In this document: piece by piece, positions 2,613 to 63,592 of the stretch
Layout of the letters: every line of letters begins with the position of its first letter
Numbering within the stretch: the stretch's first letter is position 1
DNA from: Lachnospiraceae bacterium
GTDB lineage: Bacteria; Bacillota; Clostridia; Lachnospirales; Lachnospiraceae
Direction: 5' to 3'
Length of the DNA: 64,000 nt
Assembly (NCBI GenBank): GCA_900168235.1
Contig: FUZG01000006.1
Span: 1 to 64,000 of the forward strand
Translations under genes and position numbers: made by a program
The notes under the pieces: model-generated
Databases searched by the model: none
Told to the model about the DNA's origin: nothing
The model's input: only the letters and a program-made list of their open reading frames with translations

Positions 2613-2654
2613 GGTCACCGGAAGTCAGAATTTTTCTGACCCGGTGACTTTTTT
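2613..2654 (+). terminator. Terminator of the flavodoxin gene
   Basis: Long stem GTCACCGG/CCGGTGAC, extended internally by GTCAG/CTGAC, then TTTTTTA. It lies 32 bases after the stop codon. Confidence 0.9.
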
Positions 2655-2664
2655 ATATTTTTCT

Positions 2665-15061: not shown

Positions 15062-15931
15062 TCACCTGTATTTTTTCACTAATGAGAACCCCCTGCCTTC
15101 TACAGTGTTTACACGGCTTACTGCGATAAAGCTTACGGGATCGATCTCTTTTATCGCTGCCTCTACACTTGGAAGAGCACGGTTCTGAACGATGGTTATG
15201 AGAACATTCTGGGGATTTTTCAGATATCCTCCCTCTCCGTATAAAACAGTGACGCCGTGGTCGAGGTCGAGAAGTATCCGCTGGCGGATCTCTTCTGCAT
15301 GTTCACTGATGATGGTGACCTGAGTGCGGCTCTGTCCCATGAGGAGAAAACGGTCCAGAACAACAGTATAGAGGAGTATCATGACTACGCCGTACAGGAC
15401 GTTTTCAATAGGTGTAAATAATGCCTGCGCGATAATAACGGCGAAATCAAAAAAGTACATGGTGAGTGACAGGGGCAGTCCGAAGTGTTTTTTGAGGCTT
15501 AATGGAGGAATGTCCATACCGCCTGTCGAAGCTCCTGCATGTATGACCATGCCGAGAGAGAAACCTATTCCTACACCGGAAAAAATGGTACAGAGAAAAA
15601 TATCGTTTGTCAGAATACGGTTTCCGAGAAAACGATTTATTATCTCAAGTGACATAGGATATGTAAATGTGCTGAGGATGGTGGCTGCAGCAAATTTTTT
15701 ACCAAGGTCGAAATAGCTCCAGAGGAGAAGCAGGCCATCAAGCACGAGGATAGACGCAGACATGGGAATATGCTGTGTGCGCTGAAGTGCCAGCGCGATA
15801 CCTGTTGTACCGCCTGTTACGAGTCCTGACGGCTCGAGGAAGAGTCTTACCGTCAGAGCATACAGGAATGTGCCGATGACGGTCATGGTCACTGATTTTA
15901 TAATGTCTTTTTTACTTGTCTTGCTGTTCAT
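15062..15931 (-). CDS. YitT-family membrane protein (DUF161/DUF2179)
   Basis: 289 residues: five predicted membrane helices in the first 200 residues, including the family motifs LFLEPSGLVTGGTTGIAL and VIHAGASTGGMDI, then a soluble DUF2179 domain (RTQVTIISEHAEEIRQ, TVLYGEGGYLKN). The family is widespread in Firmicutes and its substrate is unknown; membrane transport of a small molecule is often suggested. The frame stays open far upstream, but I place the start at ATG 15931 because GGAG lies 8 bases before it and the upstream codons run through a family A repeat. The repeat ends only about 12 bases from the start codon, so it may influence expression. Confidence 0.88.
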   Translation of the reverse strand: MNSKTSKKDIIKSVTMTVIGTFLYALTVRLFLEPSGLVTGGTTGIALALQRTQHIPMSASILVLDGLLLLWSYFDLGKKFAAATILSTFTYPMSLEIINRFLGNRILTNDIFLCTIFSGVGIGFSLGMVIHAGASTGGMDIPPLSLKKHFGLPLSLTMYFFDFAVIIAQALFTPIENVLYGVVMILLYTVVLDRFLLMGQSRTQVTIISEHAEEIRQRILLDLDHGVTVLYGEGGYLKNPQNVLITIVQNRALPSVEAAIKEIDPVSFIAVSRVNTVEGRGFSLVKKYR

Positions 15932-15942
15932 ATAATGTCTCC

Positions 15943-16060
15943 AAAAAATACCTTGATAAGTGCTCCGCATAGCAAGTTGCGCTAGGCTCGAAAATACCTC
16001 GCCAAGCGAACTTACATAGCACGCACTAGGCTCGAAAATACCTCGCCAAGTGCTCCGCAT
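15943..16060 (-). repeat. Dispersed paired-hairpin repeat, family A, best copy (2.5 units)
   Basis: Read on the minus strand. Unit I (16060-16020) has stem GCACT-T-GGC/GCC-T-AGTGC. Unit II (16020-15972) has stem AAGTT-CGCT-T-GGC/GCC-T-AGCG-C-AACTT. Both keep the loop GAGGTATTTTCGA. A third, broken unit (15970-15943) begins GGAGCACTT and merges into the ribosome site region of the YitT-type gene. The 45951-46035 copy shares the same two-unit layout almost base for base. Confidence 0.85.
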
Positions 16061-16065
16061 AAATA

Positions 16066-16094
16066 AATGGTCAGGGATGTTTTCCCTGACCATT
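16066..16094. terminator. Strong hairpin next to repeat A
   Basis: Perfect 12-bp stem AATGGTCAGGGA/TCCCTGACCATT with a 5-base loop, followed by a smaller hairpin CAGTGC/GCACTG. It has no T-run and lies between divergent promoters, so it may be part of the repeat cluster and not a true terminator. Confidence 0.45.
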
Positions 16095-45035: not shown

Positions 45036-45932
45036 ATGGATAAGATAAATGCTGAAGTTTTTCTGAAAGTCGCTGAGACAGGAAGCTTTAGAAGCGCTGC
45101 AGACATGCTGGGTTATACGCAGGCAGGAATAAGCTATATCATAAGCTCCATGGAAAAAGAGACAGGGTTAAGCCTGTTTCTTCGGGAGCACAGCGGTGTA
45201 AGTCTTACCCGCGAGGGTGAAGAGCTGCTCCCATATATGAAACAGCTAAAAGTCTGGGAACGGCAGTTTCAGCAAACTGTTGATGAATTAAATGGTCTTG
45301 AACGAGGTACTCTTCGTGTACAGATTTTTGACAGTATCTCAATCCACTGGATTCCCGGCATCGTCCGAAGATTTCATGACGATTATCCCGGGGTAAAGAT
45401 AGAGCTTATATCAGAGGAAGACAGCGCCCGTCAGGAACAGATGGTTCAGAGCGGTGAAGTTGACTGCGGTTTCTTCCTTACAACGGTTAAATCTGATATA
45501 GACTACTATCCTCTGCTGGAAGAAAATCTGCTGGCGATCGTTGCAGAAGATCATCCGCTGGCAGCCCTTGACCGTTTTCCGATAAAAGAGCTTGGAAAAC
45601 ACCCCTTCATAAGCATGAAATACGATGACCATACAGGTATCGGAGCGATATTTAAGAAGCGTAAGGTAAAACCGAAGACTGCGTTTCAGATGGATAATGA
45701 CTATGCTGCGATGGGAATGGTAAGTAAAGGACTTGGATTTTGTATTTTCCCTGAGCTTCTCTTAACAGACATGCCTGAGGGTCTTAAATGCATGGAGTTT
45801 GACGAACCCCAGAAAAGAACTATAAGTATCGGAACTGCATCTATTCAAAATGCTTCCGGCGCATGCAGAAAATTTATCGAATATACAAAAGAATGGGTTC
45901 AGGAATATATAAAAGGGGCGGATCCGTTTTAA
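45036..45932 (+). CDS. LysR-family transcriptional regulator
   Basis: 298 residues, the family length. The N-terminal winged helix has FLKVAETGSFRSAADMLGYTQAGISYIISSMEKETGLSLFLR. The C-terminal LysR substrate-binding domain runs from about 90 to 290 (LRVQIFDSISIHWIPGIVRRF, VDCGFFLT). LysR proteins usually control a divergent neighbour, here the 42-residue membrane protein gene, and often themselves. The ligand is unknown. GGAGGAAGG precedes the start. Confidence 0.93.
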   Translation: MDKINAEVFLKVAETGSFRSAADMLGYTQAGISYIISSMEKETGLSLFLREHSGVSLTREGEELLPYMKQLKVWERQFQQTVDELNGLERGTLRVQIFDSISIHWIPGIVRRFHDDYPGVKIELISEEDSARQEQMVQSGEVDCGFFLTTVKSDIDYYPLLEENLLAIVAEDHPLAALDRFPIKELGKHPFISMKYDDHTGIGAIFKKRKVKPKTAFQMDNDYAAMGMVSKGLGFCIFPELLLTDMPEGLKCMEFDEPQKRTISIGTASIQNASGACRKFIEYTKEWVQEYIKGADPF

Positions 45933-45950
45933 GAATCCGCCTTGTTTTTT
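45917..45950 (+). terminator. Terminator overlapping the LysR 3' end
   Basis: GGCGGAT/ATCCGCC stem with an 11-base loop and TTGTTTTTT. The left arm lies in the last codons (Gly-Ala-Asp-Pro-Phe). Repeat A begins at the next base. Confidence 0.85.
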
Positions 45951-46035
45951 CGGAGCACTTAGCGAGGTATTTTCGAGCTTAGTGCGTGTTATGCAAGTTC
46001 GCTTGGCGAGGTTTTGTCGAGCCTAGCGTAACTTG
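45951..46035 (+). repeat. Dispersed paired-hairpin repeat, family A, intact two-unit copy
   Basis: Unit 1 stem GCACT-T-AGC/GCT-T-AGTGC; unit 2 stem CAAGTT-CGCT-T-GGC/GCC-T-AGCG-T-AACTTG. It aligns to 16060-15972 on the minus strand with few differences, and AGC/GCT here replaces GGC/GCC there, a paired change. It lies between the LysR terminator and the end of the convergent HExxH gene. Confidence 0.85.
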
Positions 46036-46045
46036 TTTTTGGCTT

Positions 46046-58356: not shown

Positions 58357-58502
58357 GTTACTGTTCACTCGCTTACAGCTCGCTCCAGTAACGGATTTTG
58401 CCAATTAAATCGCCTTTGGCGATGGGCAAAATCCAATGGCTCGCCTTCGTTATTGGGGCATAACTGCGCAGCGTAGTGCGCAGTTTGCCTCTGAACAGTA
58501 AC
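58357..58502 (-). mobile_element. 146-bp MITE-like element, family B, with 8-bp target duplication
   Basis: Perfect 11-bp terminal inverted repeats GTTACTGTTCA (58357-58367) and TGAACAGTAAC (58492-58502). The flanks carry the perfect direct repeat AGTGTAAG (58349-58356 and 58503-58510), which includes the TAA stop of the upstream gene. The interior folds: GATTTTGCC/GGCAAAATC (58394-58402/58425-58433), ATCGCC/GGCGAT inside it, and AACTGCGCA/TGCGCAGTT (58462-58470/58477-58485). No protein is coded. A diverged copy is at 1-88. It is a non-autonomous insertion whose transposase is not in the window. Confidence 0.88.
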
Positions 58503-61117: not shown

Positions 61118-63592
61118 ATGAAAGAGATCAAGATCGACAGAAAATATCTGGAGATAAATATAAAGAAGATAAAGCTCATATATTCACTGCTGATCTTGTA
61201 TGACATCTATCTCTGGCTCGATAATTTTCAGCGCGGGATCTATTCCACAGGAATCGTGTCCCTGATAGGCGGATCGATCCCCGCGATAACGCTTGTTGTA
61301 TTACTTGGTTTCCGTCCTGAGGGAAGGACTCAGGAGCGCATAGCATATGCGTCCATCGTGGTATCAAGCTTCGTTTACTGGTTTATTTTTGGATGGTTCA
61401 TGTTCACCGGAGGCACAGCCGGTACCAGTATTTTTCTGGTATTTATGGCTGCGCCTGTGGCTTATTATTTCTTTAATCTTTTCTTTGGTTCAATTTTTTG
61501 CGGTGTGCTCTTTCTGGAGGTTGCGCTCTACATGTGGACACCGCTTTCTGACTATGGTTATCAGTTCCCTGAAATGTATGAGCAGCGTCTCCCCATGTTC
61601 CTTTTTATAGAAACAGTTCTTTGCGCTCTTGCCCAGTATGAAGCAGTAAAAGCAGGCATCATGCAGGATAGGGCGATAGAGGAAGCGAAGTTTGCAAATT
61701 CGGCAAAAACAGATTTCCTTGCAAATACAAGTCATGAGATACGAACGCCTATGAACTCGATTCTCGGCTTCTGCGAGCTCATCCTTCGTGAAGACAGCAT
61801 CAGCGCGAGAGTGCGGGACTACTGTCTTAATATACAGAGCGCCGGAGATAATCTCTTACATATCATTAATGACATTCTGGATGTGTCAAAGATAGAAGCG
61901 GGAAAGATCGAGATCGTAGACGAAGAATTTAAGCTGGAACGCCTTGTGAAGGACGTTGTAAATGTATCAATGATGAGAAAAAAGGAAAGAGGACTGGAAC
62001 TTATCGTAGATATGGACGGCAATATACCTGCGAGACTTTACGGAGATATGGGCAGGATACGCCAGATAATGATAAATCTCGTGACCAACGCCATAAAATA
62101 TACGTCTAACGGCGGAATCTACATGCGTATCGGTGTAAAGAGAAAGGATACGCCGATCCTCGTTGTCAGGGTTGAGGATACAGGCGTAGGCATAAAACCG
62201 GAGGATCTTGAGCGGATATTTCAGAGCTTCGAGCAGGTGGATAAGACAAGGACAAGACCAATAGAAGGAACAGGCCTGGGACTCACTATCTCAAAAAGGC
62301 TTGCAGATCTCATGGGTGGTGTCATTACCGTTGAAAGTGAGTATGGATGCGGCGCAGTTTTTACCATGTGGATACCTGTAAAGATCAGGGATCTGAGCCC
62401 CATCATAAAGGATCACAATTCGCTGGAAGAGGAGTACGGTATCTGCACGGATATTAATAACATACATCCGCGTCTCAGGAATAAATATAATGCACACATT
62501 GAGGATATGTGCTCTTTTTTGCACATGAGGATGCTTCCTGTCCCGACAAAGGAAAAAGACCGGAGTTCCAGATATGAAGGGCTGAAAGGATGCTTTGTCG
62601 ATGCTGCGATATATGAAGAATATAAAGAAAGATTTGACCGGATATCTGAAAAAACGGAGATCATCCTGATAGGTGATGATTTTAGCCAGAGAGCAGAGTC
62701 AAAGGATCTGAAAATGATCTATAAACCGCTTTACCTGTTGTCGTTTATGGATTTTGTGGGAAAAGATGCGGAAGACTCAGATACAACCTTGAGCGGAGCA
62801 TATATGAGGTTCACTGCACCTACCGCAAAAGTGCTGTTAGTCGATGATAATCCTATTAACCTGAGAGTCGAGCGGGGCCTAATGGAAATCTATGATATGG
62901 ATATCACTACGGCGTCCAGCGGTATGGAAGCTCTTCATATAGCGGACAAAGTAGAGTTTGACATTATCTTTATGGATCACATGATGCCTGAGATGGACGG
63001 TATAGAGACTATGAAGCGTATTCATGGAAGGGATATAAAGCGGAATAAAGGGACGCCTGTTATCGCACTGACAGCTAATGCGGTAAAGGGCATAAAAGAG
63101 ATGTTCCTGGAAAACGGTTTCAACGGATTTATTTCTAAGCCCATAGATCTGAATGAACTGGACAGGATACTAAGGAGCTACATCCCGAGGTACAAGATAA
63201 TCGAGAATACGGAAGTGAAAAAACGTAAGACCGAAAAACTTCCTGTTGAAATAGAAAGTATGCTGAATGAGTCAGAATTATTCGACTACGATGAAGCAAT
63301 GAGGAACAGGATAGATGAAGAAAACCTGCTGTTATATATGAAGGGTTATGAGAAGAATTTCAGGGAGCTTCAGGAGTTTTTCGATGCAAAGGACTGGGAA
63401 AACTACACCTTACAGGTCCATTCACTGAAAAGCTCGTCCAGGATGATAGGAGCCGTGAAACTCAGCGAACTCGCGGAAAAAGCGGAGAAATTGTCAAAAA
63501 TACCTGACGAAACGGGTGTTTTTGAAATACAGGACGAGATATTAAAGCTATATACAGATGTATTTAATACGATAAAAAAATATGTATTTTGA
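61118..63592 (+). CDS. Hybrid sensor histidine kinase (TM sensor, HisKA, HATPase, REC, Hpt)
   Basis: 824 residues. The first 175 residues form five or six membrane helices with no large extracellular domain. HisKA has the phospho-acceptor in FLANTSHEIRTPMNSILG (about 202-219), then HATPase N box LVTNAIKYT and G boxes VEDTGVGI and GTGLGLTIS. An inactive-looking spacer follows, then REC with VLLVDDNPINL and phospho-acceptor Asp in IIFMDHMMPEMDG, and an Hpt domain with HSLKSSSRMIGA near the end. All phosphorelay parts are in one protein. It follows the HD-GYP gene by 32 bases, so the Hpt may pass phosphate to the receiver of that protein. Confidence 0.94.
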   Translation: MKEIKIDRKYLEINIKKIKLIYSLLILYDIYLWLDNFQRGIYSTGIVSLIGGSIPAITLVVLLGFRPEGRTQERIAYASIVVSSFVYWFIFGWFMFTGGTAGTSIFLVFMAAPVAYYFFNLFFGSIFCGVLFLEVALYMWTPLSDYGYQFPEMYEQRLPMFLFIETVLCALAQYEAVKAGIMQDRAIEEAKFANSAKTDFLANTSHEIRTPMNSILGFCELILREDSISARVRDYCLNIQSAGDNLLHIINDILDVSKIEAGKIEIVDEEFKLERLVKDVVNVSMMRKKERGLELIVDMDGNIPARLYGDMGRIRQIMINLVTNAIKYTSNGGIYMRIGVKRKDTPILVVRVEDTGVGIKPEDLERIFQSFEQVDKTRTRPIEGTGLGLTISKRLADLMGGVITVESEYGCGAVFTMWIPVKIRDLSPIIKDHNSLEEEYGICTDINNIHPRLRNKYNAHIEDMCSFLHMRMLPVPTKEKDRSSRYEGLKGCFVDAAIYEEYKERFDRISEKTEIILIGDDFSQRAESKDLKMIYKPLYLLSFMDFVGKDAEDSDTTLSGAYMRFTAPTAKVLLVDDNPINLRVERGLMEIYDMDITTASSGMEALHIADKVEFDIIFMDHMMPEMDGIETMKRIHGRDIKRNKGTPVIALTANAVKGIKEMFLENGFNGFISKPIDLNELDRILRSYIPRYKIIENTEVKKRKTEKLPVEIESMLNESELFDYDEAMRNRIDEENLLLYMKGYEKNFRELQEFFDAKDWENYTLQVHSLKSSSRMIGAVKLSELAEKAEKLSKIPDETGVFEIQDEILKLYTDVFNTIKKYVF

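Follow-up and report, generated by a model that had tools for sequence, protein, structure and literature searches.

A short two-hairpin repeat behind intrinsic terminators of Lachnospiraceae is probably a non-autonomous mobile element

The paired hairpin repeat described here, termed family A, is probably a non-autonomous mobile element of ~90 nt, which inserts in one direction only into the T tract of intrinsic terminators, as judged from sequence comparisons. The repeat was noticed at three loci of the window, that is, the whole stretch of 64,000 nucleotides that was analysed. A covariance model built from 23 copies detected it at 104 places in the 3.79-Mb source genome (E <= 0.1), of which 22 copies shared the top score and an identical 87-nt sequence; so many identical copies point to recent spread. 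With a 17-base core and up to 2 mismatches, 156 matches were obtained in the genome and none with the reversed control. Restriction to the three places, which the initial annotation had named as an outcome against a new family, was thus found to be false.

The layout of two tandem hairpins, 44 bp apart, was present at all three loci, one of them degenerate. The core GGCGAGGTATTTTCGAGCC (up to 3 mismatches) matched the window five times, at positions 2673, 15985, 16029, 45961, and 46005, where 0.03 matches were expected, confirming the layout that the initial annotation had read from the sequence. The focal dimer (15971 to 16057, minus strand) scored 110.6 bits in the covariance model (E 2.3e-22) and belongs to a subfamily with the left end ATGCGGAG and the right end CTTGCT. 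Its two hairpins were predicted both as RNA and as DNA, and its folding was better than that of shuffled sequences to the same extent in both (z -2.3). Hairpin I (16023 to 16053, minus strand) pairs GCACT-T-GGC with GCC-T-AGTGC and contains a T.T mismatch and a tandem G.A/A.G step. Hairpin II (15972 to 16015, minus strand) has a longer stem with one bulged base and the same apical core. Directly behind the right end of the dimer lies a third, partial unit, ATGCGGAGCACTTATCAAGGTATTTT (15945 to 15970, minus strand). The dimer at 45951 to 46037 on the plus strand represents the main subfamily (116.3 bits, E 1.1e-23); the genome holds 21 further copies with an identical sequence. Folding of the 45951 copy gave z -2.9 as RNA and -3.8 as DNA (identical copy L001). 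The plus-strand copy at 2663 to 2747 (63.7 bits, E 2.3e-11) also keeps the layout; it is degenerate, mainly in the second unit, and folded no better than shuffles (z 0.06), which corrects the initial description.

The hairpins are conserved as structures. Among 119 distinct hairpin units, five stem positions kept pairing through changes, beyond any of 1000 shuffles in which the relatedness among the hairpins was still present. The stem variants included CACT/AGTG, CGCT/AGCG, TACT/AGTA, ATCT/AGAT, and GCGT/ACGC, and the correspondence between CACT/AGTG of unit I and CGCT/AGCG of unit II, pointed out earlier, is seen in the sequence. The region GAGGTATTTTCGA had been taken for a constant loop. 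By folding and covariation, it is better described as a short loop closed by one or two further pairs, which stack on the tandem G.A/A.G step; the constant T.T mismatch lies below. The mismatch was kept in 113 of the 119 hairpins and the step in all 119, a universality that is partly built in because the collection of units required the letters GAGG and CGA. Since the G.A pairs form on one strand and are absent from the other, one strand appears to be recognised in folded, single-stranded form, be it RNA or DNA.

Family A occurs in four forms. In addition to the dimers with units 44 bp apart, there are dimers of 137-138 bp with an extra hairpin module of ~50 bp, which occurs only inside family-A elements. 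Solo units of ~43 bp begin with the left half of unit I and continue with the right half of unit II, the product expected if the two units recombined. Head-to-tail copies meet at the junctions CTTGTT|TTCGGAG, TTTGTT|GTGCGGAG, and CTTGCT|ATGCGGAG. By their left ends (TTCGGAG, ATGCGGAG, and GTGCGGAG), the copies fall into three subfamilies whose linkers and right ends match accordingly. The ends, TTCGGAG... and ...CTTGTT, form no terminal inverted repeat, and no gene was seen in the element. A long autonomous version was rejected, as the sole longer regular form was the 137-138-bp variant, likewise without a gene.

None of the Rfam covariance models matched the elements, as the initial annotation had asked to be checked. 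The literature search, confined to open-access papers and thus weak evidence, returned neither a repeat of this kind in Lachnospiraceae nor any terminator-targeted miniature element. Together with the genome-wide occurrence, these results bear out the impression of a new-looking family. Matches were found in 14 of 37 genomes of the genus (the source genome and 13 others) and in none of 24 genomes from other families of the order, counts in which weak matches are lost under stricter filters. Exact matching against 84,980 species genomes gave 52 stretches, which came from Lachnospiraceae bacteria, Ca. Lachnoclostridium stercoravium, an uncultured Roseburia, a Butyrivibrio, [Clostridium] aminophilum, and the Clostridiaceae strain 1XD21-29. 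Phages, plasmids, and IMG/VR contigs were rejected as carriers, since none of them gave a match.

Some of these copies stand in wider repeats. The copies in G033 (L075, L086, L096, ~position 1512) also have their flanks in common, with a 5' hairpin AACAGGCC...GGCCTGTTT and a 3' hairpin ATGACTTT...AAAGTCAT, as if the dimer and a terminator-like hairpin were now spreading as one larger repeat. In several rumen genomes (L159, L162, L164, L169, L175, L177), the dimer lies within a larger repeat that has GGGGACG at one boundary and GGGGAC at the other; this kind of sequence flanks RAYT-like genes in other genomes examined. In L146, L165, and L178, monomers of 54-56 bp are arranged in tandem, and their linker and repeated motif co-vary (GGCAT with ATGCC, GCAT with ATGC).

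The position of the copies was then compared with terminators, for which the criterion was a same-strand hairpin ending in a T-rich tail just upstream of the copy. Such a terminator lay immediately 5' of the element, with the left junction in the T tract, in 78 of the 87 testable copies (those with a recognisable left end and flanks of 60 nt, leaving out the second copy of each tandem), and several of the other nine appear by eye to have imperfect terminators. A terminator-type hairpin was found in the downstream flank of 7 of the 87, against 6.4% of random 60-mers. The mean folding energy was -20.4 kcal/mol for the upstream 47 nt, -6.5 kcal/mol downstream, and -7.1 kcal/mol for random sequence. 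Position -4 was T in 99% of copies, and the commonest junction 5-mers were TTTTT (21), TTATT (17), and TTGTT (11). In the window, a terminator hairpin and T tract directly precede the 45951 copy (45917 to 45950, plus strand) and the 2663 copy (2613 to 2662, plus strand), the latter hairpin being kept in G014. With ORFs called by a simple length rule, 93 of 100 copies were intergenic, and the comparison with gene ends that had been proposed at the outset placed 82 of these 93 after the end of a gene on the same strand, at a median of 66 nt past the stop codon. Terminators were also found upstream of the element in NK4A144 (13 of 14 copies) and a related MAG (6 of 6). In Ca. L. stercoravium, related elements lay behind terminators in 0 of 11 cases; hence, terminator targeting belongs to one lineage and not to the hairpin. 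Copies of that organism (L128, L131, L136, L143, L144, L148, L151, L161, L171) have GGTATAATA or GGTATACTA at both boundaries; these sequences resemble an extended -10 promoter motif.

Mobility is indicated by four copies for which relatives have orthologous sites lacking the element, the terminator being kept at three. G014, G009, and G031 retain both the flanking genes and the terminator at C19:270643; the terminator is also kept in these three genomes at C19:274902, where the source genome has a solo unit, and in G014 at the 2663 locus of the window. The fourth empty site lies upstream of yitT in the same three relatives. These genomes are only ~70-90% identical in the regions concerned, and the gained bases are accordingly not fixed to the base. 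Another site, C19:284169, was set aside because it is rearranged in the relatives. Neither the junctions nor the best empty site showed a target duplication, within the approximate boundaries.

The focal element lies between a terminator-like hairpin on the minus strand, TGGTCAGGGA/TCCCTGACCA followed by TTTATTT (16061 to 16092), for which the class-wide test above also speaks, and the GGAG ribosome site (15939 to 15942, minus strand) of a yitT-family gene with its start codon at 15931 (PF02588, E 1.3e-48). Indeed, the third, partial unit reaches this GGAG, in agreement with the initial annotation, which had the repeat abutting the ribosome site. The same annotation supposed that the repeat may act in the mRNA leader. 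A conserved role there is not supported, since the three relatives lack the element upstream of yitT, and the prevalence of copies just past the terminator at the 3' end of a same-strand gene further counters it. The next gene upstream of the focal element is divergent (16255). If transcription starts further upstream, the element is in the yitT leader, and this in the source genome only among those compared.

From these observations, a mechanism may be outlined. The element would move as a folded single strand, more likely of DNA than of RNA. An enzyme supplied in trans would recognise the hairpins and join the left end of the element to a target consisting of a hairpin plus TTNTT. The right end of the element, hairpin II plus TTGTT, resembles this target and would itself serve as an insertion site, which would explain why second copies sit exactly behind first ones. 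Landing behind terminators spares genes and transcripts and would permit a high copy number.

Searches for Y1 transposases, group II introns, and RVT_1 found no enzyme or autonomous partner, and several explanations were weighed. A narrower form of the proposal, that family A derives from REP or IS200/IS605 and is moved by a Y1 (HUH) transposase, either TnpA or TnpA-REP, seems plausible to us, though we would not expect it to be the correct one. It accounts for the subterminal hairpins in direct orientation with a mismatch or bulge in the stem, for the GGAG or GTAG tag 5' of hairpin I (compare GTAG of REP; PMC8266576), for the lack of target duplication, and for the likeness of right end and target; moreover, the source genome has Y1 genes. 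However, these carry other ends, the hairpins of the IS200 and IS605 copies being unrelated. When 22 carrier genomes were searched, none of 65 Y1 loci, RAYT-like ones included, had family-A hairpins within ~1.5 kb on either side, no Y1-like frame was found beside family-A copies, and Y1 transposases were rejected as carriers. Furthermore, no Y1 was detected in 10 of the 22 genomes, some of them incomplete drafts, but also including G021 (93% complete), G022 (95%), and Ca. L. stercoravium. One host IS200 copy (L031 ~1250-1320) likewise lies shortly downstream of a terminator-like hairpin. In the window, positions 395 to 477, ahead of the ATGGCGAAG start, resemble the leader of the host IS200 transposase gene (CCTTTCCGCCGACAATAAAGTTGTTCAGGC). 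It is also conceivable, although we consider it unlikely, that family A is a group of minimal elements of two hairpins and a linker without a gene, transferred in folded, single-stranded form by an unrecognised type of enzyme, and that the end motif would set the target, namely hairpin plus TTNTT in one lineage and GGTATAATA in the other. The linker ATACC of the GGTATAATA lineage complements the motif found at either end, and in G024 the motif GGTAC goes with the linker GTACC; the linker of the terminator lineage pairs only with the right end, forming the base of hairpin II. Because the linker complements the end motif and changes with it, it might guide target choice; these are leads and not proof.

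An RNA route, in which reverse transcriptase or intron-type machinery would join the element to the terminator hairpin or to the 3' end of the terminated transcript, appears quite improbable. Group IIC introns target terminator stem-loops or attC sites and insert behind them, with the consensus TTGT/T (PMC7923331), which is strikingly like the TTGTT of the element, and insertion in sense orientation at a transcript 3' end would fit an RNA step. Nevertheless, a group II intron or reverse transcriptase was rejected for the source genome (99.9% complete), in which no match to RF00029 or RVT_1 was found and which yet has the most and freshest copies; RVT_1 was also absent from G021, G024, and Ca. 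L. stercoravium, and the element has no intron core. We regard it as very unlikely that family A is a functional regulatory RNA or leader, a backup terminator, or an insulator held by selection. The covarying structure, the place of the focal copy at the yitT ribosome site, and the resemblance of hairpin II plus TTGTT to a weak terminator would suit such a role, but orthologous sites lack the element, the identical copies indicate recent spread, the neighbouring genes vary, and most copies lie outside the terminated transcript of the upstream gene. Hardly more credible is untargeted insertion followed by selection against copies not behind terminators. Purifying selection alone would give the observed share of intergenic copies; it would not bring the left end into the T tract, give T at -4 in 99% of copies, and keep a single orientation throughout, nor would it leave 90% of copies with a terminator upstream and only 8% with one downstream. 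Insertion of a non-autonomous mobile element targeted to terminators thus remains the explanation we favour.

Group IIC introns aside, we are aware of no small mobile repeat whose insertion is directed to intrinsic terminators in general. An element that finds safe ground by structure and not by sequence would explain ~100 copies without broken genes. Family A serves as a marker of transcript 3' ends in the genomes of Lachnospiraceae; its enzyme, once found, would provide a means of placing short sequences immediately after genes. Another dispersed repeat, ~147 bp long, was also observed, at 58357 to 58502 and partly at 5 to 89 of the window and at G000:C11 ~62990-63140 (L279:986-1140); it has a branched fold (-68 kcal/mol) and many copies in G014, G031, and G009.

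Among known systems, DDE-type MITEs are recognised by terminal inverted repeats and target-site duplication, and family A shows neither. It shares with the modular miniature repeats of Firmicutes, such as BOX and RUP, the size of ~100 bp, the structured and dispersed nature, and the gain or loss of an internal module (here the 50-bp hairpin), but differs in host group and in its terminator-specific position. Like REP/REPIN sequences with their RAYT (TnpA-REP), family A consists of short, dispersed intergenic hairpins at high copy number with a conserved stem mismatch and a conserved tetranucleotide 5' of the hairpin, GGAG (GTAG in G033), which we take to be a REP-type tag; the imperfect palindrome, the tetranucleotide, and the many intergenic copies that define REP are all seen here. 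Unlike REP/REPIN, it is made of two different hairpins in direct tandem and not of inverted pairs, is inserted behind terminators in one orientation, and has no RAYT flanked by its hairpins among the 65 Y1 loci. A REP-like nature, a concern of the initial annotation, is plausible from the architecture, which is like that of REP and IS605, but no matching transposase was found. With IS200/IS605 and their non-autonomous derivatives, family A has in common subterminal hairpins on one strand, the lack of terminal inverted repeats and target duplication, and insertion 3' of a short motif resembling the right end (junctions mostly TTNTT), but no TnpA-bearing copy among the loci scanned has family-A end hairpins. 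As with group IIC introns, the target is a stem-loop followed by a TTGTT-like sequence, behind intrinsic terminators and in one orientation; unlike them, it has no intron domains (no domain V, RF00029) in a genome without RVT_1, and itself ends in a hairpin plus TTGTT instead of merely following one. Family A seems to work most like REP or IS200/IS605-type single-stranded DNA elements (PMC8266576), and its target choice resembles that of group IIC introns (PMC7923331). Because it fails one defining test of each, we file it under neither and rate it as a small non-autonomous mobile repeat with unusual target specificity.
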